From contig NZ_QRBF01000003.1 of NCBI RefSeq assembly GCF_003363265.1, positions 124,001 through 188,000 on the forward strand: DNA of 64,000 nt. Direction: 5' to 3'. The DNA comes from Dyella psychrodurans (lineage in GTDB: Bacteria; Pseudomonadota; Gammaproteobacteria; Xanthomonadales; Rhodanobacteraceae). The translations under genes were made by a program, and so were the position numbers. Of the stretch, positions 13,677 to 25,509 are shown one piece after another. Every line of letters begins with the position of its first letter. Within the stretch, counting starts at the first letter, position 1. The notes below the pieces were generated by a model. The model searched no databases and was not told where the DNA came from. It was given only the letters and a program-made list of their open reading frames with translations.

Positions 13677-14270
13677 TCAGTGACTTTCACAGCAGGATGG
13701 CCGGCCCTTCGATGGCCCCGGCCACTCGCCGATGCCACCCGGCAGCATGTCGAAGAAGTGCCATATCGCGCAAAAATCGTCGCCAGGACTGAAACCCGTA
13801 TCCGATACCCGCGTGATGACGTCGCCGTCCCGCCTGAAAACAGAAACGCCCGGCATCCATCCGCCCTTCGCCGACACATAGCCCATGTCCGCCGCAAAAC
13901 TCGAATCGGCATGACTCACCATCGGAAATCTCCACCCGCGGCTTTCGGCGAATTTCTTCTGCACCTCGGGACGATCAGGACTCGAAACAACAAAGCCCGC
14001 GCGCGTCACGACGTGCTGATGGAAGCCGTTGTATCCGTCGGCCCACAAGGTGCAGTACGAACACGCCACCCCCATGTTGTGGATGACGATGAGATCTTCG
14101 TGCTCGCCAAAGAGTTCGGACAGGTGCACCGAACCTTCGGCGCTTGCGAATTCGTAGTCCTTGACTTCCTGAGGCTCGACGGTGGCGAGAGTCTCCCTCA
14201 TGCTCTCCCGAATGCTGGCGATTTGCCGGCGATAGTCGGCGAGCTTTCCGTTTACGTCTGCGTATTTCAT
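13677..14270 (-). CDS. DUF899 thioredoxin-like protein, second copy
   Basis: 197 residues. DUF899 domain with thioredoxin-like fold; motif CSYCTLWADGYNG near residues 70-82 holds the CxxC, and the C-terminus has the family 'FFDMLPGGIGEWP'. Ribosome site GGAG before the ATG. Third gene of the arsR-DUF899-DUF899 operon, 27 bases after the first copy. The pair differ greatly in sequence, so an old duplication or two subfamilies. Biochemical role is not established. Confidence 0.85.
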   Translation of the reverse strand: MKYADVNGKLADYRRQIASIRESMRETLATVEPQEVKDYEFASAEGSVHLSELFGEHEDLIVIHNMGVACSYCTLWADGYNGFHQHVVTRAGFVVSSPDRPEVQKKFAESRGWRFPMVSHADSSFAADMGYVSAKGGWMPGVSVFRRDGDVITRVSDTGFSPGDDFCAIWHFFDMLPGGIGEWPGPSKGRPSCCESH

Positions 14271-14297
14271 TGTCGTGCTCTCCAGCCGTGCGCCGAA

Positions 14298-15026
14298 TCA
14301 GTGTTCGTACGCGGTGCGGTACTTCACCCATGACATCGGGAATGACAAGGCATCCTCATCGCGCCCCTTCGGCGCCATGTCCAGGTAGTGGTATGCGGTG
14401 TTGAACATGTCCACGCCGCGCGAGTACGTGGAATAGGTGTGATAGATCTGATCGCCGTCCTTGAAGAACGCGCTGATGCCGGGAAGCTCAGTCGCTGCTT
14501 TCGATGTATGGCAGTCGCGGGTGACTTTTTGCGTCCCGAAGTTGTAGTACGCCTCGCCTTCGGCCACGTCTTCCGGCGAGAACGAAACCTTGTAATCGAA
14601 GTTGAAATCGCTGTCTGACGAGGAAACCCACTTGAACGTCCAACCCAGTTTCCGCGCCTGGGCCCGCAGCTTATGCAGCGGCGCGCGCGAGACGGCCACC
14701 ATGGCGACGTCCCGCTGATTGAGATGCGGAATGATGCCGTTGAAGTTGTCCGCCCAGAAAGAACAGCTCGGGCAACCCATCTCCCAATCCGGATCGAACA
14801 TGAAGTGGTAGACGATCAACTGGCTATGCTTGCCGAAGAGATCCGCAAGCGTTTCCTTGCCGTTCTCGCTTTCGAAGATGTACTGCTTTTCGACGCGTTC
14901 CCAAGGAAGATCCTGCCGCTCCCGACTGAGTTCATCGCGCAGATGGGTGAACTCTTTTTCCCTGGCGAGAAAGCGCGTGCGCGCGGCGATCCATGCTTCG
15001 TGATCCACGATGTGATGTTTAGCCAT
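14298..15026 (-). CDS. DUF899 thioredoxin-like protein, first copy
   Basis: 242 residues, full-length DUF899. The conserved core reads YHFMFDPDWEMGCPSCSFWADNFNG (a CxxC), followed by VSRAPLHKLRAQARKLGW and the C-terminal YHYLDMAPKGRDE. Ribosome site GGAGAG before ATG. Second gene of the ArsR operon. DUF899 genes are commonly paired with ArsR regulators in proteobacteria; a redox or thiol-stress role is inferred from the fold. Confidence 0.88.
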   Translation of the reverse strand: MAKHHIVDHEAWIAARTRFLAREKEFTHLRDELSRERQDLPWERVEKQYIFESENGKETLADLFGKHSQLIVYHFMFDPDWEMGCPSCSFWADNFNGIIPHLNQRDVAMVAVSRAPLHKLRAQARKLGWTFKWVSSSDSDFNFDYKVSFSPEDVAEGEAYYNFGTQKVTRDCHTSKAATELPGISAFFKDGDQIYHTYSTYSRGVDMFNTAYHYLDMAPKGRDEDALSFPMSWVKYRTAYEH

Positions 15027-15089
15027 GACACTCTCCGTACAACGTTCTGACGCTGATATGGGACTGGCACCGCGCCCATGCGGCGCCGT

Positions 15090-15539
15090 TCATTGCTTGC
15101 GCGACGGGCGTTTCTTCGTGTGTTTCGGCGACTGCGCGGATTTGGGCTGCTTCGCCTTTCGTTCGTCGATGTCCGCCAGCGTGGCCGCCAGCATGTCGAA
15201 CTGCTGCTGCCAGTACTTGCTGTAGCGATTCATCCAGACTGCTGCATCGAGCATCGGACCGGCATCCAGGCTGCATCGGCTGATGCGCCCCGTGCGCTCC
15301 TGCTGGACGAGCCCGGTTCGCACCAGCACCTGGATATGACGCGATACCGCCTGCAGCGAGATATCGAATGCTGCAGCGAGCTCGGAAACGAGCAACGCCT
15401 GTCCGTCGAGCCGCTCCAGGATCTCTCGCCGCACGGGGTCCGACAGGGCAAAGAACACCTGGTCCAGCTGCGCCTGCGCCGCATCCGGGTCCAGCCCGGC
15501 CTCACCCACCGCCCGCAGTGTCTGTCGAATAGTCATCAT
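15090..15539 (-). CDS. ArsR-family transcriptional regulator
   Basis: 149 residues. Winged helix-turn-helix at about residues 22-95 (FFALSDPVRREILERL ... LQAVSRHIQVLVRTGLVQQE). No Cys metal-binding ELCVCDL motif, so it belongs to the SdpR-like, non-metal branch. The C-terminal tail is Lys/Ser/Gln rich. It leads the operon and its promoter contains a matching inverted repeat, indicating autorepression. No Shine-Dalgarno precedes the ATG; the promoter position predicts a leaderless message. Confidence 0.88.
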   Translation of the reverse strand: MMTIRQTLRAVGEAGLDPDAAQAQLDQVFFALSDPVRREILERLDGQALLVSELAAAFDISLQAVSRHIQVLVRTGLVQQERTGRISRCSLDAGPMLDAAVWMNRYSKYWQQQFDMLAATLADIDERKAKQPKSAQSPKHTKKRPSRKQ

Positions 15540-15678: not shown

Positions 15679-16599
15679 CTACCGCACGGGCTTAATGCCC
15701 GCGCCGATCGCCTCCACAACGCATCGCCTGAACCATACATGCGCCGGATCTTCGTTCGTGGATTCGTGCCAGTACGCCATGATGGGAAACGCCTTCAGCT
15801 TGATCGGCAACGGCAATACGACGATGGGAAGCAGCGAAGACAGATGCAACGCATAGGAACGCGGCACGGTCAGCAGCAGATCGGTGCCGGATGCAATCTG
15901 GCACGCCGAGAAGTAATGCTGGCAGACAAGCCGGATCTGGCGAAACGTGCCGCTTTGCCCCAGCAGTACATCCAACGCACTGATTTCTCCAAACGGCGAC
16001 ACGGTGACATGCTGGGCAGCAAGATAGTCGCTTCGCTTCAATGACGACGCCAGCGAATGACCCGCGCGCATCACGACCACCAGCGTTTCTTCCGCGAGAT
16101 GTTGGCGCGCGATCTGCGGACCGGCGCGCAGGGGACGATCGACGACGAGGCTCAATGTCCCCGCTCGCAGCTCTCTGTCCACTTCACCCGCTGCGATGCG
16201 GTGGCTGACTACTCGCACATGCGGCGCCTCGCGCTCGATGCGCTTGAGCAGAACGGGAAGTGCGATGGATTCGAGAATGTCTCGAAAACCGATCGTGAAT
16301 TCCAGCTCCAGGCGCGCCGGATCGAATCTCGGCTGTGCATGCGCGGTGGCATGCAAGCCCTCCAGATGCGCTTGCACGGCAGGCATCATCGTGCGCACTT
16401 TTTCCGTAGGCAGCAGCCGGTTTCCCTGGCGTATGAACAGCGGATCGCCAAGATGATCTCGCAGGCGCTTCAGTGCGTGCGTCACGGCGGGCTGGGTAAG
16501 GTGCAGCACACGCGCCGCCGCGCTTACGCCGCCATAGGTGTAGATCGCGTCCAGGACCCGGAAAAGGTTGAGATCGATGCGACTGTCCGTGCGTTCCAT
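15679..16599 (-). CDS. LysR-family transcriptional regulator
   Basis: 306 residues from ATG 16599, preceded by GGGGAAG. N-terminal LysR helix-turn-helix (NLFRVLDAIYTYGGVSAAARVLHLTQPAVTHALKRLRD) and a C-terminal periplasmic-binding-like effector domain. Lies divergent from the acyl-CoA dehydrogenase operon across 130 AT-richer bases (16600-16728), so it is the likely regulator of that operon, probably responding to a pathway acyl-CoA or acid. Confidence 0.9.
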   Translation of the reverse strand: MERTDSRIDLNLFRVLDAIYTYGGVSAAARVLHLTQPAVTHALKRLRDHLGDPLFIRQGNRLLPTEKVRTMMPAVQAHLEGLHATAHAQPRFDPARLELEFTIGFRDILESIALPVLLKRIEREAPHVRVVSHRIAAGEVDRELRAGTLSLVVDRPLRAGPQIARQHLAEETLVVVMRAGHSLASSLKRSDYLAAQHVTVSPFGEISALDVLLGQSGTFRQIRLVCQHYFSACQIASGTDLLLTVPRSYALHLSSLLPIVVLPLPIKLKAFPIMAYWHESTNEDPAHVWFRRCVVEAIGAGIKPVR

Positions 16600-16728
16600 G
16601 GCTTCCCCTGATTGACGCTTTGAGCATACGCCAACCCATTCATGAAAGTGATAGGTACCCATTAGACATATTCATTTCAATAATCCCCTTGAGTAGGCGT
16701 AGGCTGAACGGATTCAGGAGACAAGCCC

Positions 16729-17955
16729 GTGGACTTCGCCCCTTCCGAACGCACCCAGGCCCTGGCCGAACGCCTCACCCGATTCATGCGCGAAGAGATC
16801 GCGCCGGCCGAAGCGCTTTACGTCGCCGAGTTGAGCGGCAGCCCCGATCACCGCGTCTGGCGGCAGCCGGCGATCATGGAAACGCTGAAAGCCAAGGCGC
16901 GCGAAGCCCGTTTGTGGAACCTGTTTCTTCCCGACGCCGAATACGGCCCGGGACTGAGTAATGCGGACTACGCACCGTTGGCTGAAATCATGGGGCACTC
17001 GTTCATAGCCCCTGAAGTGTTCAACTGCAGCGCACCCGACACCGGCAACATGGAAGTGCTGCATCGCTACGGCACGGACGAGCAGCGCGAGCGCTGGCTG
17101 AAGCCGCTCCTGGCCGGCGACATCCGTTCGGCGTTTTGCATGACCGAACCCGATGTCGCATCCTCCGACGCCACCAATATGCGCGCCACCGCGCGGATCG
17201 ATGGCGATCATGTCGTGTTGAACGGACGCAAATGGTGGACGACCGGCGCAGGCCATCCGCATTGCCGTTTCGTCATCTTCATGGGTTTGAGCAATCCCGA
17301 AGCGGAACCGCACAAACGGCATGCGATGGTGATCTGTCCGCTCGATACACCCGGTGTGAAGATCGAACGCATGTTGCCGGTGTTTCATCACTACGACGAA
17401 CCCTCCGGTCATGGCGAACTGAGCTTTACCGATGTCCGCGTGCCGGTCGGCAATGTGATACTCGGGCCGGGACGCGGCTTCGAGATTGCACAGGGAAGAC
17501 TCGGGCCGGGACGCATTCATCACTGCATGCGCGCGATCGGCGCAGCGGAGCGCGCGTTGTCCCTGTTGTGTAAGCGCGCCAGATCGCGCAAGGCGTTCGG
17601 AAAGCATCTCGCGGAGCTGGGCGGCAATCCCGATATCGTGGCGAACCTGCGGATGGCCATCGACCAGGCGCGCCTGCTCACGCTGAAGACGGCGTGGACG
17701 CTCGACACGCAAGGCACCAAGGCCGCGCTGGGCCTTATTTCGCAGATCAAGGTGGTGGTACCCGCCGTCGCGCAACAGGCGGCCGATGCGGCGATCCAGA
17801 TTCACGGTGGCGCCGGCCTTTCCGATGACTTCCCTCTCACACAGTTGTTTGCGTATGCCCGCGTGCTGCGCCTGGCCGATGGTCCGGACGAAGTACATCG
17901 CAGCGTGATCGCCAAGCTCGAAGCAAAGGCGCAGGCCCACATGGAGTCGCTTTGA
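16729..17955 (+). CDS. acyl-CoA dehydrogenase of the ACAD10/ACAD11 type
   Basis: 408 residues from GTG with CAGGAG ten bases before. FAD-dependent acyl-CoA dehydrogenase fold. Stretches typical of the ACAD10/11 clade rather than fatty-acid chain-length enzymes: NCSAPDTGNMEVLHRYGT near 102-120, FCMTEPDVASSDATNM near 136-152, GRGFEIAQGRLGPGRIHHCMR near 247-267, and RVLRLADGPDEVH near 380. In animals this domain is fused to a kinase and converts 4-phosphorylated acyl-CoA during 4-hydroxy-acid breakdown; LvaC plays that part in Pseudomonas. Here the kinase is the next gene, overlapping by one base. Confidence 0.88.
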   Translation: MDFAPSERTQALAERLTRFMREEIAPAEALYVAELSGSPDHRVWRQPAIMETLKAKAREARLWNLFLPDAEYGPGLSNADYAPLAEIMGHSFIAPEVFNCSAPDTGNMEVLHRYGTDEQRERWLKPLLAGDIRSAFCMTEPDVASSDATNMRATARIDGDHVVLNGRKWWTTGAGHPHCRFVIFMGLSNPEAEPHKRHAMVICPLDTPGVKIERMLPVFHHYDEPSGHGELSFTDVRVPVGNVILGPGRGFEIAQGRLGPGRIHHCMRAIGAAERALSLLCKRARSRKAFGKHLAELGGNPDIVANLRMAIDQARLLTLKTAWTLDTQGTKAALGLISQIKVVVPAVAQQAADAAIQIHGGAGLSDDFPLTQLFAYARVLRLADGPDEVHRSVIAKLEAKAQAHMESL

Positions 17956-19025
17956 TGAGCAGCACGCTGGATCAGGCGCGCGCCCTGCGCGAGGAAGATG
18001 CCTTCGACGTTGCGCGAGTCGACGACTATCTCAAGCAACACATCGAAGGACTGCAAGGCACGCCGACAGTTGCGCAATTTCCGGGCGGCGCCTCCAATCT
18101 CACGTATCTGTTGACGTACACGAATCGCGAACTGGTCTTGCGCCGCCCACCCATCGGCGCCAAGGCGAAATCCGCGCACGACATGTTGCGCGAGGCGCAC
18201 GTCATGGCGGCACTGAAGCCGCACTATCCGTACGTGCCATTCATCCTCGCCATCTGCGACGACGAATCCGTCATCGGCCAGCATTTCTATGTGATGGAAC
18301 GACTGCGCGGCGCCATCCTTCGCCGCGATATTCCACAGCAACTCGGCCTGGACGCCGATGGCGTGCGCACGCTATGCCATGGCTTCATCGATCGTCTCGT
18401 CGAATTGCACAAGATCGATGCATCCGGAACTGAACTGCACGGCATTGGCAAAGGTGAGGGCTACATCGCGCGCCAGGTTTCCGGCTGGAGCGACCGTTGG
18501 CGCCAGGCCGTCACCGACGGCACCGACGCATGCGAAGACGTGCTTGCATGGCTGGCCGGAAAGCAACCCGCCCGCGACAACGCCACCTGCATCATCCATA
18601 ACGATTACCGCTACGATAACGTGGTGCTCGATCCGGAGCAGCCGCTGCGCATCATCGGCGTGCTCGACTGGGAGATGGCCACGATAGGCGATCCGCTGAT
18701 GGATCTCGGCGGCTCGCTCGCGTATTGGGTGCAGGCCGATGACGATGCCGTCTTCCAGTCGTTTCGCCGCCAACCCTCCAACGCACCCGGCATGCTCACG
18801 CGCCACGAAGTGATCGATTACTACGGCAGCCGTACCGGCATGAGCGTGGGCAACTTCGATTTCTACGAGGTGTTCGGCCTGTTCCGGCTGATGGTGATCA
18901 TCCAGCAGATCTACCGCCGCTTTGTGCTGGGCCAAACCACGAACCCGCAATTTGCCGGTTTTGGCGACGCTGCCCGCTATATGGGCGCACGCTGCCGCCG
19001 CATCATCGCGCGCTCGGCACTGTGA
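17955..19025 (+). CDS. APH-fold phosphotransferase, probable 4-hydroxyacyl-CoA kinase
   Basis: 356 residues; ATG overlaps the previous stop (TGATG). Aminoglycoside-phosphotransferase/choline-kinase fold: N-lobe FPGGASNLTYLLTY and LVLRRPP, then Brenner motif HNDYRYDNVVLD near 214-225 and DWEMATIGDPLMDLG near 238-252 with catalytic and metal Asp. Closest in style to the N-terminal kinase domain of ACAD11 and to LvaA. Role inferred: phosphorylates the 4-hydroxy group so that the dehydrogenase partner can move oxygen to C3. Antibiotic resistance is unlikely given the operon. Confidence 0.82.
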   Translation: MSSTLDQARALREEDAFDVARVDDYLKQHIEGLQGTPTVAQFPGGASNLTYLLTYTNRELVLRRPPIGAKAKSAHDMLREAHVMAALKPHYPYVPFILAICDDESVIGQHFYVMERLRGAILRRDIPQQLGLDADGVRTLCHGFIDRLVELHKIDASGTELHGIGKGEGYIARQVSGWSDRWRQAVTDGTDACEDVLAWLAGKQPARDNATCIIHNDYRYDNVVLDPEQPLRIIGVLDWEMATIGDPLMDLGGSLAYWVQADDDAVFQSFRRQPSNAPGMLTRHEVIDYYGSRTGMSVGNFDFYEVFGLFRLMVIIQQIYRRFVLGQTTNPQFAGFGDAARYMGARCRRIIARSAL

Positions 19026-19717
19026 CCGTGCGCAGCGTGCTTCTGATTCGTCATGGACAGGCCAGCTTTCGCGCGGCGGATTACGACCGTCTTTCGGAGC
19101 TGGGTGAAGAGCAGTCGCGGCGGCTCGGCACGTGGCTGGCAGCGACAAGCCCCACGCCGGACCTCGTCGCCGTGGGACCGCGACAACGTCACTTGCGCAC
19201 GGCCGAGTTATGCCTGCAGACCGCAGGCATCGATCGTCCGCTGTTGCATCTGGACGGATTGGACGAAGTCGACCACGAAGAGTTGCTCGCGCGGCTCCGT
19301 CCCGACCTGGCCGCGCCGGATGCCTTGCGCACTGAACTGAAGCAATCGCCGGATCCGTATCGCGCCTTCCAGCAATTGTTTTCCGCCGCCATCGCACGAT
19401 GGATCGCCGGCGCACACGACAACGACTACACGCTCACCTGGTCACAATTCCGCGATCGCGCAATGGCGACATTGAAGGTGCTTGCGGATCAAGATGCAAA
19501 AACGATCTGGGCCTTCACCTCGGGCGGCCCGATTGCCGTGCTGACCAATGCGGTGATCGAGGCACCCGTCGAGCAGACCTTCAAGCTCAGCTGGCCACTG
19601 GTCAACACCAGCCTCACTCGACTGCGCATGGGCAAGCACGCTCCATCGCTGATCACCTACAACACCTGGCCACATCTGGAACGGATCGAAGACCGACATC
19701 TGATCACCCATCGCTAA
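19022..19717 (+). CDS. histidine phosphatase family protein
   Basis: 231 residues, GTG start overlapping the preceding stop (GTGA). Phosphoglycerate-mutase fold with the catalytic RHGQ at residues 10-13 and a second conserved region around FTSGGPIAVL near 162. Not a glycolytic mutase: gpmA is elsewhere in the window and the sequence is SixA/CobC-like. In this operon it may remove phosphate from a pathway intermediate; that is inference from position. Confidence 0.82.
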   Translation: MTVRSVLLIRHGQASFRAADYDRLSELGEEQSRRLGTWLAATSPTPDLVAVGPRQRHLRTAELCLQTAGIDRPLLHLDGLDEVDHEELLARLRPDLAAPDALRTELKQSPDPYRAFQQLFSAAIARWIAGAHDNDYTLTWSQFRDRAMATLKVLADQDAKTIWAFTSGGPIAVLTNAVIEAPVEQTFKLSWPLVNTSLTRLRMGKHAPSLITYNTWPHLERIEDRHLITHR

Positions 19718-19749
19718 ACGGCACGCCACCTTCAACGGATACACGCATC

Positions 19750-20520
19750 ATGACCACACCACCGAGCTTCGATCTTTCAGGAAAGATAGCCATCGTCACG
19801 GGCGCCAGCCGCGGCATCGGCGCGGACATCGCCAAGCTGCTGGCCGCCCAAGGCGCGCACACGATCGTGTCGAGTCGCAAACAAGCCGATTGCCAGACTG
19901 TCGTCGACGAGATCGTTGCCGCCGGCGGTTCGGCCGAGGCCATCGCCTGCCACATCGGCGAACTCGAACAGATCGAAGCCTTGTTCGCGCACGTCGCGCA
20001 GAAACACGGCCGGCTCGACATTCTCGTCAACAATGCCGCCACCAATCCCTTTTTCGGCCACATTCTGGATACCGAGCCGTCGGTGTTCCAGAAGACCGTG
20101 GACGTGAACATTCGCGGCTATTTCTACATGTCCACGCATGGCGCGCGGCTGATGGCGAAGAACGGCGGCGGCTCCATCATTAACGTGGCATCGGTGAATG
20201 GCGTGGTTCCCGGCTTTCAGCAAGGCATCTACTCGATCACCAAGGCCGCGGTCATTTCGATGACCAAGGCCTTTGCGGTGGAGTGCGCCGAATCGGGCGT
20301 GCGTTGCAACGCGTTGCTGCCGGGCCTTACCGACACCAAGTTCGCCTCGGTGCTGGTCAATACGCCGGCCATTCTCAAACAGGCGCTGGCGCACGTGCCG
20401 ATGCGCCGCGTCGCTCAACCGTCGGAAATGGCGGGCGCGGTTCTTTATCTCGCTTCCGATGCAGCGTCGTACACCACAGGTGCGGTGCTGAATGTCGACG
20501 GCGGCTACCTTTGCATTTGA
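19750..20520 (+). CDS. short-chain dehydrogenase/reductase
   Basis: 256 residues. Rossmann nucleotide motif TGASRGIG near 17-24, NNAA near 96, catalytic S-Y-K (VASVNG, YSITK near 161-165), and the C-terminal GAVLNVDGGY. Three-hydroxyacyl-CoA dehydrogenase or ketoacyl reductase activity would fit the operon. Upstream the frame stays open but the ATG at 19750 matches the family N-terminus. Followed by a second SDR after 15 bases. Confidence 0.88.
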   Translation: MTTPPSFDLSGKIAIVTGASRGIGADIAKLLAAQGAHTIVSSRKQADCQTVVDEIVAAGGSAEAIACHIGELEQIEALFAHVAQKHGRLDILVNNAATNPFFGHILDTEPSVFQKTVDVNIRGYFYMSTHGARLMAKNGGGSIINVASVNGVVPGFQQGIYSITKAAVISMTKAFAVECAESGVRCNALLPGLTDTKFASVLVNTPAILKQALAHVPMRRVAQPSEMAGAVLYLASDAASYTTGAVLNVDGGYLCI

Positions 20521-20535
20521 GAACCGGGATTACAC

Positions 20536-21324
20536 ATGACTGATACCTCCACACAGCGCGTTGCCGGCAAGTGCGCCTTCATTACCGGCGCGGCAGGCGG
20601 ACTCGGTGCCGCAACCGCACGCATGCTTGCGCGACACGGCGCCAAAGTGTTCATCACGGATATCGATGAAACCGCCGTAAAGACGGTGGCATCCGACATC
20701 AATCGCGAAACCGGCGCTGACGTGGCGTGGGCTTCAAAACAGGATGTTCGCGATGAGACGGCCTGGCAACGCTTGCTTGATGAAGCAGCCGACGTCATGG
20801 GCGGTCTGTCGGTGCTCGTCAACAACGCGGGCATCGGGTCGCTGGGCGGCGTCGAGCGCATCGAGCTCAAGGAATGGCGGCGCGTGATGGAAGTAAACGT
20901 GGAGAGCATCATGCTCGGCTGCAAGCACGCATTGCCGCATTTGCGTAAGCAGCAGCCCGCATCCATCGTGAACATCTCCTCGCTGGCTGCATTCAAAGTA
21001 GATCCGGATTACACCGCATACAACACGTCCAAGGCCGCCGTCGCGATGTTGACCAAGTCGGTGGCCGTGGATTGCGCTCGCCAGAAGATCGACGTGCGTT
21101 GCAACTCGATCCACCCGGCATTTATCCGCACGGGTATCGTGGCACCGTTCTTCGCCTCGCTGGGCGAGGAAGAAGCGACGCGCAAACTCACGCGAGGCAT
21201 CCCGATGCGACGTCTTGGCGAACCGGACGACGTGGCCTATGCAGTGCTCTATCTTGCCTCCGACGAAAGCCGCTATGTGACCGCTGCCGAGCTCGTGATC
21301 GACGGCGGCGCCTGCGCCGTGTAA
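20536..21324 (+). CDS. short-chain dehydrogenase/reductase
   Basis: 262 residues. ITGAAGGLG near 16-24, NNAGIGSLGG near 95, active Ser in NISSLAAF, YNTSKAAV near 162-169 with catalytic Tyr/Lys. Resembles 3-alpha/7-alpha-hydroxysteroid or 3-hydroxyacyl dehydrogenases, with LvaD-like function possible. It is the fifth gene of the operon and does not share high identity with the preceding SDR, so the two probably act on different intermediates. Confidence 0.87.
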   Translation: MTDTSTQRVAGKCAFITGAAGGLGAATARMLARHGAKVFITDIDETAVKTVASDINRETGADVAWASKQDVRDETAWQRLLDEAADVMGGLSVLVNNAGIGSLGGVERIELKEWRRVMEVNVESIMLGCKHALPHLRKQQPASIVNISSLAAFKVDPDYTAYNTSKAAVAMLTKSVAVDCARQKIDVRCNSIHPAFIRTGIVAPFFASLGEEEATRKLTRGIPMRRLGEPDDVAYAVLYLASDESRYVTAAELVIDGGACAV

Positions 21325-21348
21325 TGACTCTCTCCAAAGGTGTACGTC

Positions 21349-22365
21349 ATGTCCCTGATCAATCGCCAATTGCGCCTGAAAACCCGTCCCGAAGGCCTGG
21401 TCAAGCGCGAAGATTTCGAGCTGCATCAGCAGCCCGTTCCCGAACTCAAGGACGGCGAATGTCTGGTGCGCGTGCTGTACCTGTCGATGGACCCCACCAA
21501 CCGCGTGTGGATGAGCGACATCCCGCAGTACATGCCTCCGGTGGCGATCGGCGAAGTGATGCGTGCGCTGGGCGTGGCGCGCGTGGTCGCATCCAAGTCC
21601 TCGTACTACGCCGAAGGCGATCTCGTGCAGGGGTTGGTCGGCTGGCAAGACTACGCCGTCATCGACGACCGACGCCGCAAGGACTACGTCAAGCTGCCGT
21701 CACGCGCTCCCGTGCCGCTGCCCACGCTGCTTGGCGCCTGCGGCTTCAGTGGCATTACGGCTTACTACGGCCTTACCGAGATCGCACCCGTGCAACCGGG
21801 CGAAACACTGGTTGTGTCCGCGGCGGCGGGTTCGGTGGGGTCGATTGCCGGTCAGATCGGTAAGCTGCGCGGTGCGCGTGTCGTCGGCATCGCGGGCGGT
21901 GCGGACAAGTGTCGCCATCTTGTCGACGAACTGGGCTTCGACGTGGCCGTCGATTACAAAGCCGACAACTGGAAGCAGGCACTCGCCGACGCCACGCCGG
22001 ACGGCGTGCACGTCAATTTCGAAAACGTGGGCGGACAGGTCATGCGCGCGGTGCTGTCGCGCATGGTCAACGGCGGCCGCGTGGCGCTTTGCGGATTGAT
22101 CGCCAACTACACCACCGGCTCGCGCCCCAGCGACGACTACAGCATCATGATCGTGAAACGCCTGACCGTGCGCGGATTCCTTGCGTTCGACTACCACGAC
22201 ACGCAGAAGGCCGTGCACGATCTGGTCGGATGGGTATCCACCGGAAAGATCAAGGCCGAAGAGACCATCGAAGACGGACTCGAGAATGCGCCGGTCGTGC
22301 TCAACAAACTGTTCGAAGGCGGCAATCGCGGTAAGTTGTTGCTGCGTGTTTCCGACGAAACGTAA
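21349..22365 (+). CDS. NADP-dependent medium-chain oxidoreductase (CurA/PTGR-like)
   Basis: 338 residues from ATG 21349 with AAAGG ribosome site. Zinc-free MDR family of leukotriene B4 dehydrogenase / prostaglandin reductase / CurA: N-terminal INRQLRLKTRPEG, YLSMDPTNRVWM, cofactor motif VSAAAGSVGSIAGQIGK. These reduce alpha,beta-double bonds of enones and enals, including 4-hydroxynonenal-type lipid products, which fits a 4-hydroxyacyl pathway. Last gene of the operon. Confidence 0.88.
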   Translation: MSLINRQLRLKTRPEGLVKREDFELHQQPVPELKDGECLVRVLYLSMDPTNRVWMSDIPQYMPPVAIGEVMRALGVARVVASKSSYYAEGDLVQGLVGWQDYAVIDDRRRKDYVKLPSRAPVPLPTLLGACGFSGITAYYGLTEIAPVQPGETLVVSAAAGSVGSIAGQIGKLRGARVVGIAGGADKCRHLVDELGFDVAVDYKADNWKQALADATPDGVHVNFENVGGQVMRAVLSRMVNGGRVALCGLIANYTTGSRPSDDYSIMIVKRLTVRGFLAFDYHDTQKAVHDLVGWVSTGKIKAEETIEDGLENAPVVLNKLFEGGNRGKLLLRVSDET

Positions 22366-22418: not shown

Positions 22419-23348
22419 TTAATCAGTGGGTTGTCCCTGCCCCAACATGCGTCCATTGACTTCGGTGCCGTATAGCGAATCGGGGGTGTCGTGATACGAG
22501 GCACGGGTGGCCTGGATCGAACCCGTGAAGCGCGGATCCTGCGGTCGCTCGTGCGCATCCATGAAGTACGCGACATCCCACGCATCCTGATCAGTCAACG
22601 TGTTGCCGCGACCCAACGGCATGTTGGCCTTGATGAAGCCCGCGGCAAAATTGACCTGCTCCATGCCTGCGCCCCAATTGAACGATTGCGATCCCCACAG
22701 TGGCGGAAACACGGTGCGCCCTGCCGACTGTTGGCCTTGGCCGTTGTCGCCGTGGCATAGCGCGCAATCGCGTTTGAACACCGTCTCGCCACGCGCATAG
22801 TCGGGCGCAAGTGCTGGCTTCGCTAATTTGGGATAGCCGCGACCGGGAAGCGACGCGCCCACCGGTGCGCCTTTCGCCATCCAGTACGCGTAGGTTTCCA
22901 GTGCTACCAGCACGGGATCGCCAAGCGGCGGCGCCTTGCCGTTCATGCTGTAGTTGAAGCAACCCTGCAAGCGCTCGGCAAACGTGTTGACGTGATGATT
23001 CTTGCTGCGATACGCGGGATACATCGGATACGCACCCCACAGCGGCGCTGACTGCGCAAGACGTCCCGCATCGAGATGGCAGTTCTCGCAACTCAACTGA
23101 TTGCCGACGTAAGCCTTCGCATAACGAGCCGGATCGATGAAGATCTGCCGGCCAAGGGCAATCTGCTTGCCGAAATCATCGTTGGGAATGTCCGATTCGG
23201 AAGGTGGAACGAAAGCAGACTGTTTTTTCGAAGTTGACGTTGCAGGTGCAGGATTTTTCGCGACGGGTGCAGCCAGCTGAGGCGTGGCGTGATCGCACGC
23301 TGCCAGCGATAGCGCGGCGCCAAGCAGAATGAAGCGCATGTGTTTCAT
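22419..23348 (-). CDS. tsdA: TsdA-type diheme thiosulfate dehydrogenase
   Basis: 309 residues from ATG 23348 with GGAG eight bases before. Lipoprotein-like signal (LSLAAC, Cys18). Two c-type heme sites CENCH (87-91) and CALCH (195-199). The block NTFAERLQGCFNYSMNGKAPPLGDP contains Cys130 at the position of the TsdA heme-1 axial Cys ligand, diagnostic for thiosulfate dehydrogenase / tetrathionate reductase. Oxidises thiosulfate to tetrathionate in the periplasm. Last gene of a four-gene operon with a TsdB-like diheme cytochrome just upstream (overlap of four bases). Confidence 0.85.
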   Translation of the reverse strand: MKHMRFILLGAALSLAACDHATPQLAAPVAKNPAPATSTSKKQSAFVPPSESDIPNDDFGKQIALGRQIFIDPARYAKAYVGNQLSCENCHLDAGRLAQSAPLWGAYPMYPAYRSKNHHVNTFAERLQGCFNYSMNGKAPPLGDPVLVALETYAYWMAKGAPVGASLPGRGYPKLAKPALAPDYARGETVFKRDCALCHGDNGQGQQSAGRTVFPPLWGSQSFNWGAGMEQVNFAAGFIKANMPLGRGNTLTDQDAWDVAYFMDAHERPQDPRFTGSIQATRASYHDTPDSLYGTEVNGRMLGQGQPTD

Positions 23349-24007
23349 GGCTGCTTCTCCTTCGAGGGTGCCATCGACTGTGCCGCGTACCACGCGCTGA
23401 CTGCCGCGATATCCGCATCGCTCAACCTGGTGGCCACGTTTTGCATCAACTGCAAGGGATCGTTGCGGCGCGCCCCCTGTTGCCAGGCATGCAGCTGGTT
23501 GGACAGATAGACGGCCGATTGCCCGCTCAACGGTGGAAAGTGGTCGCCCACGCCAACACCATCGGGCCCATGGCATTGCTCGCATCCCGGCAACGATTTC
23601 GTCCAGTTCCCGCGCACTGCCAATGCCTGTCCCGTCTGCGCGGCATCGCCGGAAGGTGCAGGCGACAGCGTCCATGCGGGCGCGGGAAGCTTGCTGTAGT
23701 ACGTAGCCACTGCATCGCGCTCGGCGTCGCTCAAGCCATTCGCGACGGGCTGCATGGTGGCGTTGACGCGTGTGCCGCCGGCGAAATCATCCAGCTGTTT
23801 GCGCAAGTAGGCTTGCGACAATCCAGCCAGGCGCGGAAACCCCGCGGCGGCCTGTCCGGCGCCATCCGCGCCATGACAGGCCAGGCAGGGTGCCACGCCG
23901 TGGCCGTTGCCTTGTTGCGCGATCGTCGCACCGTTGGGCGCATCGGCCAGCGCGTGCGATCCCCACAGCGTGAGAAGAACCATCAGCGTGGCGCGCAAGG
24001 TATTCAT
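23345..24007 (-). CDS. diheme cytochrome c (cytochrome c4 / TsdB-like)
   Basis: 220 residues. Signal peptide (about residues 1-21, LWGSHALADA). Two tandem cytochrome c domains with CLACH (41-45) and CEQCH (142-146), each followed by conserved FPxLxGQ/LxxYLxxQL segments. Likely electron acceptor for TsdA, passing electrons to a terminal oxidase. Start and stop overlap both neighbours (ATGA), implying translational coupling. Confidence 0.85.
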   Translation of the reverse strand: MNTLRATLMVLLTLWGSHALADAPNGATIAQQGNGHGVAPCLACHGADGAGQAAAGFPRLAGLSQAYLRKQLDDFAGGTRVNATMQPVANGLSDAERDAVATYYSKLPAPAWTLSPAPSGDAAQTGQALAVRGNWTKSLPGCEQCHGPDGVGVGDHFPPLSGQSAVYLSNQLHAWQQGARRNDPLQLMQNVATRLSDADIAAVSAWYAAQSMAPSKEKQP

Positions 24008-24954
24008 GGTGTCGCCGGCTGGAAGCCGTACTTGCGATAAATGGCTTGCGCATCGGATGACGCCATGAACGCGAGAAAATCCTTGGCGGCCTGCACGTGC
24101 GGCGCAGCTTTCAGGCGCGCCGCCGTGTATGTCGCGGTAACGTTCTGGTCAGCCGGTATCACGATGGTTTCCACTGGCCGATGCAGGATCTGCTGCTGGA
24201 AATAGGCTTCGGTGGACCACACCGGCGCCGCATCCGATTCGCCCTGCAACACGCGCAACGGCGATTCGCGATGATGGATGGTCGTCAAATAAGTGCTGCC
24301 ATCTTTCACCTTGGTATCCATCACGGCCTGATCGAGCGCATCGCCACCGGCTTTGCGATAGCTGGCTTCGATCTGCTTGGCGATGCCTTCCCACTTCGGA
24401 TTGGGCATGCTCACGCGCACATCGGAGCGACCGAGATCTTTGAGGCCCTGGACGTGCTTGGGATTGCCCTTGGCCACCATGATCGCCAAAGGATTGCGCG
24501 CGTAGTCCACCGTATCGGCAAACCAGTCGTGCTCTTTCTGCAGATCGGCCATTGAACCCTTGCCGTTGGTGAAGATGTCCGGTTTGAGCGCAATGCGCAG
24601 ATTGCCCATCACCAGCGAACCGGTTTCGATCTGCTTGGCGAGAATGCCCGGCGGCAGCGTTTCCACGTAAACACGCTGATACTGCGGATAGCGTTGCTTG
24701 AACGCCTCGACCAGATCGTGCACCACCATGAACTGGTTGCCGGCGAAGAACACCGTGAGTTGCGGATCGACGATATCGCCGTGCAGATCGGCGATGGCGT
24801 CGAACGGCGGCATCGCGAACGACACGCCACCGGTCGGCGGTGGATTCCACGGCGGCAGGTAATCGTTTTGACCCGCGCTGGCGCTGCCGCACAAGGCGAC
24901 GAGCAAGCTCGCCAGCAACGCGCGTTGCCAAGGGCCGTTCAAACGTGACGACAT
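24004..24954 (-). CDS. periplasmic solute-binding protein, orphan
   Basis: 316 residues with a signal peptide (SLLVALCGSASA, cleavage about residue 28). Type II periplasmic binding fold resembling molybdate/tungstate ModA-like proteins (SBP_bac_11): FFAGNQFMVVHDLVEAFKQRYP, RNPLAIMVAKGNPKHV. No ABC permease or ATPase is adjacent. It lies inside the thiosulfate operon, so an oxyanion ligand such as a sulfur oxyanion is inferred but not shown. Confidence 0.75.
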   Translation of the reverse strand: MSSRLNGPWQRALLASLLVALCGSASAGQNDYLPPWNPPPTGGVSFAMPPFDAIADLHGDIVDPQLTVFFAGNQFMVVHDLVEAFKQRYPQYQRVYVETLPPGILAKQIETGSLVMGNLRIALKPDIFTNGKGSMADLQKEHDWFADTVDYARNPLAIMVAKGNPKHVQGLKDLGRSDVRVSMPNPKWEGIAKQIEASYRKAGGDALDQAVMDTKVKDGSTYLTTIHHRESPLRVLQGESDAAPVWSTEAYFQQQILHRPVETIVIPADQNVTATYTAARLKAAPHVQAAKDFLAFMASSDAQAIYRKYGFQPATP

Positions 24955-24969
24955 GGTCGGCTCCCTTTC

Positions 24970-25509
24970 TTACAGCGGCAGCAGGGCGTAACCCTTCTGC
25001 TCCAGTTCGGAGATCGTGGTCAACGCGGAAAGACTCAGCGTCACATCCTTGGACGCCCATTCGTTGGGATAGTGATGCTCGGCCATCGCCTGACCGCAGA
25101 CGGCCACATCGACACCCGCCTTGCGCAGTTGCGCGATGGCTGCGAGGTTGGGGTTGGCGGTGCCGAACTGCGCCTTGTAGTGCTCGTCGTCCAGCACCAG
25201 GCTGGTAGCGGCACCGTAGGCCACCGCGACGAACTTCAGATGATCGAGCGGCACGCCCGATGCCACGTATAGATTGACCGTGCGCGCCACGCGCTCGAGG
25301 CCGGGATTGATCTGATCGGGCTTGTCGCTACCCTTGGTCAGCGAGAACACCACCTTGTACGTCGCGGCCGGATCGGGCTGATAGGCCGCCTTGGGCAGTG
25401 GATGATAGGCGCCTGCAGCCGTGATGACGGCAGGGGCGCTCTGGGCCAGGACGGCAGCGCAGCCAAACAGGCCGGCGACGCAGGACAGCAACAGAATCGA
25501 ACGTTTCAT
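24970..25509 (-). CDS. periplasmic DsrE-family protein
   Basis: 179 residues with a signal peptide (about 1-22). DsrE/DsrF-like alpha/beta fold; a single Cys138 in VAVCGQAM occupies the family position for persulfide relay. First gene of the operon DsrE, SBP, cytochrome c, TsdA. A sulfur carrier or binding role in the periplasm is inferred from family and neighbours. Confidence 0.8.

Follow-up and report, generated by a model that had tools for sequence, protein, structure and literature searches.

A Dyella psychrodurans operon with a predicted 4-hydroxyacyl-CoA kinase, an ACAD10/11-type dehydrogenase and a histidine-phosphatase-fold third partner

In a 64,000-nucleotide stretch of the Dyella psychrodurans genome (contig NZ_QRBF01000003.1, positions 124,001 to 188,000; hereafter the window), we analyzed a tightly packed locus at 15679-22365. 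It comprises a LysR-type regulator on the minus strand and, on the plus strand, an acyl-CoA dehydrogenase (ACAD), an APH-fold kinase (KIN), a histidine-phosphatase-fold protein (HP), two short-chain dehydrogenases/reductases (SDR1 and SDR2) and a medium-chain dehydrogenase/reductase (MDR). We read the locus as a chromosomal operon that would feed (R)-4-hydroxyacyl-CoAs into beta-oxidation with HP as a third partner, and we give this whole reading a probability of roughly 0.65. The locus very likely encodes a kinase/dehydrogenase route for 4-hydroxyacyl-CoA, because the residues reported to be essential in ACAD11 are present in the ACAD and the catalytic and CoA-site residues are present in the kinase.

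All six plus-strand genes and the divergent LysR matched the expected families in Pfam and NCBIfam, which confirmed the gene set named by an earlier sequence-only reading. The one-base overlap that it had noted between the ACAD stop and the kinase ATG (TTGATG) was also found. The kinase starts at the ATG at 17955, not at the TTG listed at 17952, and it overlaps HP by 4 bases (GTGA).

Results

The dehydrogenase is of the ACAD10/11 type

The closest PDB matches of the ACAD were 4hr3 (E 6e-163) and ACAD11 (1e-132 to 2e-128); no ordinary ACAD matched better than 4e-43. The protein is 53% identical to mouse ACAD11 (211/397). It has been documented that R626, H634, R637 and D753 of ACAD11 are needed to convert 4-phosphoacyl-CoA to 2-enoyl-CoA, and that their replacement disrupts dehydrogenase activity (PMC12440821). 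The mouse residues R626, H634 and R637 (HCMR) and the catalytic D753 correspond to R257, H265, R268 and D384 of the window ACAD; the PDB chain index runs one below the published numbering, hence a shift by one in this mapping. Among the ACAD-like frames of at least 300 bits in the loci scanned, R-x7-H-x-M-R was present in 130/130 and DGP with its Asp in 129/130, the remaining frame (L088) ending before that site; L281 and L301 are one place in these counts.

In a tree of 69 ACAD rows, from which short or missing ones among those chosen were left out, the ACADs of 33 loci or genomes with the window's kinase clade lay on one side of a single branch (99/96). These 33 include three unlinked Pseudomonas-type ACADs, and the same side also contains four rows not assigned to this group beforehand. 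On the strength of the ACAD11-type residues and the tree we rejected an ordinary beta-oxidation ACAD, and the ACAD10/11-clade motifs claimed earlier were borne out with all key residues present. In one Pseudomonas-type genome (G543; L169:8695-9920), the single ACAD is split into two overlapping frames while the kinase and HP matches are whole, which reflects either decay or a sequencing error.

The kinase belongs to a clade separate from that of ACAD11

The host genome (4.54 Mb, 16 contigs; G000) contains a single kinase match at E<=1e-3. This kinase matched five PDB sequences, among them 9o56 (E 2e-73), 3dxp (1e-49) and mouse ACAD11 (2e-45), to which it is 34% identical (106/310). Its R173, D217 and N222 (numbered from the ATG) were invariant in 22 rows. 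With the same shift by one, the published catalytic Asp220 and Asn225 and the CoA-site Arg176 are D218, N223 and R174 of the window in TTG numbering. An Arg preceding the alpha-C Glu (R79-E80) is also invariant in the kinase; the published R86 could not be placed by number.

In an unrooted tree of 80 kinase rows, the window kinase grouped with 9o56 and Deinococcus (90/84), and ACAD11, on a long branch, grouped with 3dxp (100/99), so that the two are not of the same clade. Kinases of Lva-like clusters fell outside both groups (100/100). The ACAD is nearer to ACAD11 than to ordinary ACADs, the kinase is not in the ACAD11 clade, and both proteins stand apart from those of the Lva-like clusters, which were named by architecture.

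An antibiotic or sugar kinase was rejected. The only NCBIfam matches of this kind were a capreomycin phosphotransferase model at 30 bits (cut-off 390) and thiamine kinase and LxmK models at about 20 bits. The resistance-kinase models therefore did not fit, and the matches to ACAD11 and its relatives agree with the earlier assignment. Some caution comes from the depositors' names, since 9o56, the nearest solved relative, is deposited as 'Aminoglycoside phosphotransferase' and 9fsg is also named after these enzymes; the other three PDB sequences are ACAD-linked.

Kinase and ACAD co-occur across genomes, often with HP

We scored a single draw of 398 genomes from the phylum, with thresholds of E<=1e-20 for the kinase (both kinase clades) and E<=1e-90 for the ACAD; for HP, scoring covered no more than 7 candidates per genome. 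The kinase was found in 131/398 genomes and the ACAD in 129/398, all of them within the 131; the two kinase-only genomes were G012 and G226. Fisher tests gave 2.6e-104 for kinase and ACAD and 4.8e-37 for kinase and HP, values that ignore genome relatedness and so overstate independence. The kinase was present in 68 of the 70 HP-bearing genomes. Within the window's class, HP was found in 49 of the 51 kinase genomes, and the other two (G249 and G322) have another HP type beside the kinase.

This association did not depend on gene linkage. In the Pseudomonas-type genus of G344 (59 genomes), the kinase was found in 58, the ACAD in 58 (in two pieces in G543) and HP in 57; G552 has none of the three, and HP is missing from G546. 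In this genus the three genes can be unlinked, for example in G520, where the ACAD lies at 2.20 Mb, HP at 2.31 Mb and the kinase at 4.04 Mb. The genus of G062 carries ACAD and kinase in 25/25 genomes.

Gene order is kept in the family, and HP adjoins the kinase beyond it

Within the window's own family, the kinase was found in 36/117 genomes, 22 of them with the window's kinase clade. The full order of a divergent LysR followed by ACAD, KIN, HP, SDR1, SDR2 and MDR was present in 18 of the 21 own-family loci fetched, the window aside; of the rest, L103 and L107 run into a contig end and L109 is arranged differently. Because it is kept in 18/21 loci, the seven-gene order is not due to chance. 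The nearest named relatives at the locus were a contig of a metagenome-assembled genome labelled Eremiobacteraeota (85%), which is probably misbinned, and Rhodanobacter and Dyella (73-77%).

Other orders occur elsewhere. Marinobacter and others have a divergent LysR followed by ACAD, SDR, KIN, HP and SDR1, and Pseudomonas has HP, SCP2, KIN and SDR1 or only KIN and SDR1. Across 80 named loci, HP was found in 41, in 39 cases no more than 0.9 kb from the kinase, and the ACAD in 33. HP also matched 47 plasmid records, and among the 13 plasmid surroundings opened from these it adjoined the kinase in 11, with gaps of at most 28 bases. The exceptions were Haematobacter, in which the kinase lies 5.6 kb from HP, and C. 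metallidurans, in which no kinase match was found. Hosts of plasmid HP include Azospirillum, Ideonella, Streptomyces and Deinococcus radiodurans, and the HP-kinase linkage therefore crosses phyla. In D. aetherius, HP and kinase are 24 kb apart. Three Sulfitobacter plasmids (L181, L184 and L186) carry HP followed by the kinase, together with two further acyl-CoA dehydrogenase genes, SDRs and an ABC transporter of the branched-chain-amino-acid type; the stretch gave no ACAD10/11-type match.

HP forms a subfamily in which serine replaces the second catalytic histidine

HP R10, H11, R56 and E82, which are the RHG His, two Arg and the Glu acid, were invariant in the aligned rows; in the definition of the histidine phosphatase superfamily, the Glu acid is called variable across families (PMC12051542). 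The second catalytic His is replaced, Ser167 of HP aligning with the His of 9mmh. Ser occupied this position in every row of the SGG type, in 53/53, 31/31 and 34/34 rows of three overlapping alignments. HP thus differs at its second His from branch 1 of the superfamily (PGAM5, PhoE, CobC and HFP), with an identity of at most 22% in 50 rows.

Three HP subfamilies adjoin such kinases, namely SGG, LHGG (L281) and VSHD (L273), and the latter two keep the second His. In a survey of loci of other kinase clades, 19/82 had an HP match, counting L281 and L301, which are one place, and L327, which is weak (28 bits). The 17 convincing loci comprise 11 SGG, 3 LHGG and 3 VSHD, some of them 1-3.6 kb from the kinase and not adjacent. 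A protein of about 104 aa with an SCP-2 (sterol carrier) domain follows HP in the Pseudomonas-type loci L282:6622-7699, L283:6580-7950 and L066-L078. The HP-SCP2 pair stays joined in both unlinked HP loci read, with the kinase elsewhere.

Regulator, upstream stretch and accessory oxidoreductases

The nearest NCBIfam models of the LysR were BsrA and LeuO, both under cut-off. It is divergent from the ACAD in 20/20 loci (L089-L108), and unlinked Pseudomonas-type ACADs have an adjoining divergent LysR, 35-38% identical to that of the window, in 6/7 loci (L163-L166, L168 and L169; L167 ends too soon). The core ATTCATTT was found in the 130 bp preceding the ACAD in the window and in 14/21 own-family loci, and in 3/12 loci of other families. 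This conserved sequence covers the listed start of the LysR, which is why its start is probably residue 22 of the listed open reading frame. The LysR may control the operon from this shared stretch of about 130 bp.

SDR1 was nearest to DHRS4 in the PDB (2zat, 5e-51) and also lies 3' of the kinase or HP in Pseudomonas and Marinobacter loci; it is a candidate 4-oxo/4-hydroxy- or 3-hydroxyacyl-CoA oxidoreductase. SDR2 was nearest to R-specific alcohol dehydrogenases (4rf5, E 3.5e-52). The MDR matched 4b7c (E 1e-87) and PTGR1 (1v3t, 6e-64), in keeping with the enone-reductase-like protein expected from the sequence-only reading.

Table 1. Features of the locus in window coordinates
Feature	Position	Strand	Basis or remark
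LysR-type regulator	15679..16599	-	Pfam HTH_1 and LysR_substrate; frame listed to 16662, start probably 16599
Possible LysR operator (CATTAGACATATTCATTTCAATAAT)	16660..16684	no strand	core ATTCATTT upstream of ACAD
ACAD	16729..17955	+	4hr3 E 6e-163; mouse ACAD11 E 1e-132; R257, H265, R268, D384
APH-fold kinase, 356 aa from ATG, predicted 4-hydroxyacyl-CoA kinase	17955..19025	+	PF01636 E 3e-48
HP, second catalytic His replaced by Ser167 (TSGG)	19022..19717	+	
SDR1, PRK07035 family	19750..20520	+	NF005446 451.6 bits (cut-off 373)
SDR2, PRK07069 family	20536..21324	+	NF005473 451.6 bits (cut-off 339)
MDR double-bond reductase, CurA/PTGR1-like	21340..22365	+	NF058644 349.5 bits, below cut-off 440

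Outside the operon and just past the LysR, the minus strand at 13677-15539 carries two adjacent thioredoxin-like genes (DUF899-type by eye) and an ArsR-type regulator. Downstream and convergent, at 22419-25509 on the minus strand, are two cytochrome-c-type proteins, a periplasmic binding protein and a DsrE-like protein (by eye).

Comparison with known systems

The kinase/ACAD pair and its chemistry are already known from LvaA/LvaC, mammalian ACAD10/11 and a Burkholderia pair. In these homologues, the kinase and then the ACAD convert 4-hydroxyacyl-CoA through 4-phosphoacyl-CoA to 2-enoyl-CoA (PMC12440821; PMC11342911). The ACAD10 kinase strongly prefers the R form, the Burkholderia pair substitutes for the ACAD10 domains in vitro, and LvaC is 56-62% identical to the ACAD10/11 domains (PMC11342911). 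The window shares with mammalian ACAD10/ACAD11 the ACAD-kinase pair and the phosphate-ejection residues of the ACAD. It differs in that the two domains, fused there, are two proteins here with a kinase of another clade, that HP is separate where ACAD10 has a HAD domain, and that SDRs and an MDR are in the operon.

With the Pseudomonas lva operon the window shares an APH kinase, an ACAD and an SDR; the P. citronellolis variant also has a histidine phosphatase (PMC6692424). The window regulator is a LysR, not PrpR/sigma-54, and no sigma-54/PrpR regulator, CoA ligase, transporter or DUF6285 (LvaB-type) gene was found in the operon (15679-22365). We infer that LvaB is the DUF6285 protein from its place in L273. 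In the Lva-like clusters found, which were named by architecture, kinase and ACAD are about 27% and 36% identical to those of the window, the ACAD figure being well below the 56-62% published for LvaC against the ACAD10/11 domains, and their HP is of another subfamily that keeps the second His. Because the lva regulator, ligase and DUF6285 gene are absent, and kinase and ACAD stand apart from the Lva-like clusters, the window operon is not an lva set. One such Pseudomonas-type cluster (L273:6118-13465; partly also L271 and L278) holds a PrpR-type sigma-54 regulator, an AMP ligase, an APH kinase, the DUF6285 protein, a canonical VSHD histidine phosphatase and an ACAD with the HCMR stretch.

In the lva cluster of P. 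citronellolis LA18T, a histidine phosphatase lies beside the LvaA homologue, and the authors suggest that it removes the phosphate of 4-PV-CoA (PMC6692424). This speaks against the claim of the sequence-only reading that the added phosphatase is not seen in the Lva set; its identification of the kinase and the ACAD stands. What is new is that kinase and ACAD are co-inherited even when unlinked, that HP is their usual third partner in the window's class, that a His-to-Ser HP subfamily exists, and that three HP subfamilies occur beside such kinases. Apart from PMC6692424, the open-licence literature searched, which excludes subscription papers, gave no report of a general HP linkage, of a subfamily with the His-to-Ser change or of other HP types taking its place.

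Discussion

Conserved residues and co-inheritance suggest a pathway in which the kinase would phosphorylate the 4-hydroxyl of the CoA thioester and the ACAD, using FAD transiently, would expel the phosphate to give 2-enoyl-CoA. SDR1 and SDR2 may set the oxidation state or configuration of C4, giving the R alcohol, by an LvaD-like 4-oxo reduction or an S-to-R inversion. The MDR may saturate the conjugated double bond of enals or enones, such as 4-hydroxynonenal, before the CoA step. As natural substrates, 4-hydroxy acids formed by lipid peroxidation or gamma-lactones are likely. HP probably hydrolyzes or limits 4-phosphoacyl-CoA, or the 4-phospho acid left after thioester loss, and would thereby keep ATP-driven phosphorylation from trapping CoA. 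HP is not essential to the chemistry, because ACAD10/11 function with no phosphatase and no HP match was found in many genomes that carry the pair.

With Ser in place of its second catalytic His, HP is only a putative phosphatase, and instead of clearing or limiting 4-phosphoacyl-CoA it could act as a non-catalytic sensor or restrainer of the kinase. Such a bacterial counterpart of the ACAD10 HAD domain would accord with the Ser in every aligned SGG-type row, and the phosphatase-like HAD domain, the third of ACAD10, restrains the kinase with negligible phosphatase activity (PMC11342911). However, the nucleophile His11 with Arg10, Arg56 and Glu82 is invariant, unlike in a decayed enzyme, and the LHGG and VSHD types beside such kinases keep the second His; we consider a purely non-catalytic HP unlikely. 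Far less probable is that HP removes the phosphate as an on-path step, as suggested for P. citronellolis (PMC6692424), with the ACAD doing ordinary dehydrogenation. HP does lie next to the kinase and the ACAD, but the ACAD retains the phosphate-binding R/H/R and the catalytic Asp, ACAD10/11 eliminate phosphate without a phosphatase (PMC12440821; PMC11342911), and on-path hydrolysis would merely regenerate 4-hydroxyacyl-CoA.

The chemistry could also be right and the substrate not a fatty 4-hydroxyacyl-CoA but, for example, a terpenoid, steroid or aromatic side-chain hydroxyacyl-CoA or lactone. The operon lacks a ligase that would fix the substrate, the SDRs match hydroxysteroid and cyclic-alcohol dehydrogenase families, among many others, and more distant kinase/ACAD pairs (L171-L173) lie among other catabolic genes (by eye). 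Against this, almost all genomes of the Pseudomonas-type sample have kinase, ACAD and HP, which points to a common substrate class, and the PTGR1-like MDR and the glutathione-S-transferase-like genes near some ACAD11-like pairs (by eye) fit lipid-derived enals, so that we rate such a substrate as rather improbable. The transferase-like gene recurs near ACAD11-like kinase/ACAD pairs at L113:10299-11000, L114:4849-5571 and L119:10567-11427 and would fit the disposal of lipid enals. A HAD hydrolase was considered as a neighbor of ACAD11-like kinases and rejected; the recurrent neighbor (F52) reads by eye as a glutathione S-transferase.

Several observations weigh against an operon for (R)-4-hydroxyacyl-CoAs with HP as third partner. 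The operon is patchy within the genus (3/9 among the members listed) and has no acyl-CoA ligase within it. HP was not found in 63/131 kinase genomes, 61 of them among the 80 outside the window's class, and 39 of the 80 named loci showed none close to the kinase. Eleven of these 39 are not Pseudomonas, and there a second profile was also negative, on the forward strand only and with three loci incomplete. HP also lacks one residue of a tetrad that has been described as shared by all histidine family phosphatases. The Deinococcus kinase (L175, whose ACAD was not assigned to the window's ACAD group beforehand) joins the wider kinase clade, and its ACAD falls elsewhere.

We also put forward, tentatively and with more doubt than confidence, a new HP subfamily that is active without the second His, is specific for 4-phosphoacyl-CoA and serves many bacterial ACAD10/11-type modules as a dedicated third enzyme. 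Kinase and HP would then form a futile-cycle valve that meters 4-hydroxy lipids into beta-oxidation. Different HP subfamilies would have taken on this role on at least three occasions, and a HAD domain would have done so in animals.

How mammals break down 4-hydroxy acids has been understood only since 2024-2025. The bacterial version is genetically separable, with a recurrent third partner. One Pseudomonas-type genome lacks this partner along with both others, and elsewhere a different phosphatase type takes its place, and the fate of unused 4-phosphoacyl-CoA becomes testable with three soluble proteins. Our reading would also say what the 'phosphotransferase family' genes and the 'histidine phosphatase family' genes present in nearly every Pseudomonas-type genome sampled do.

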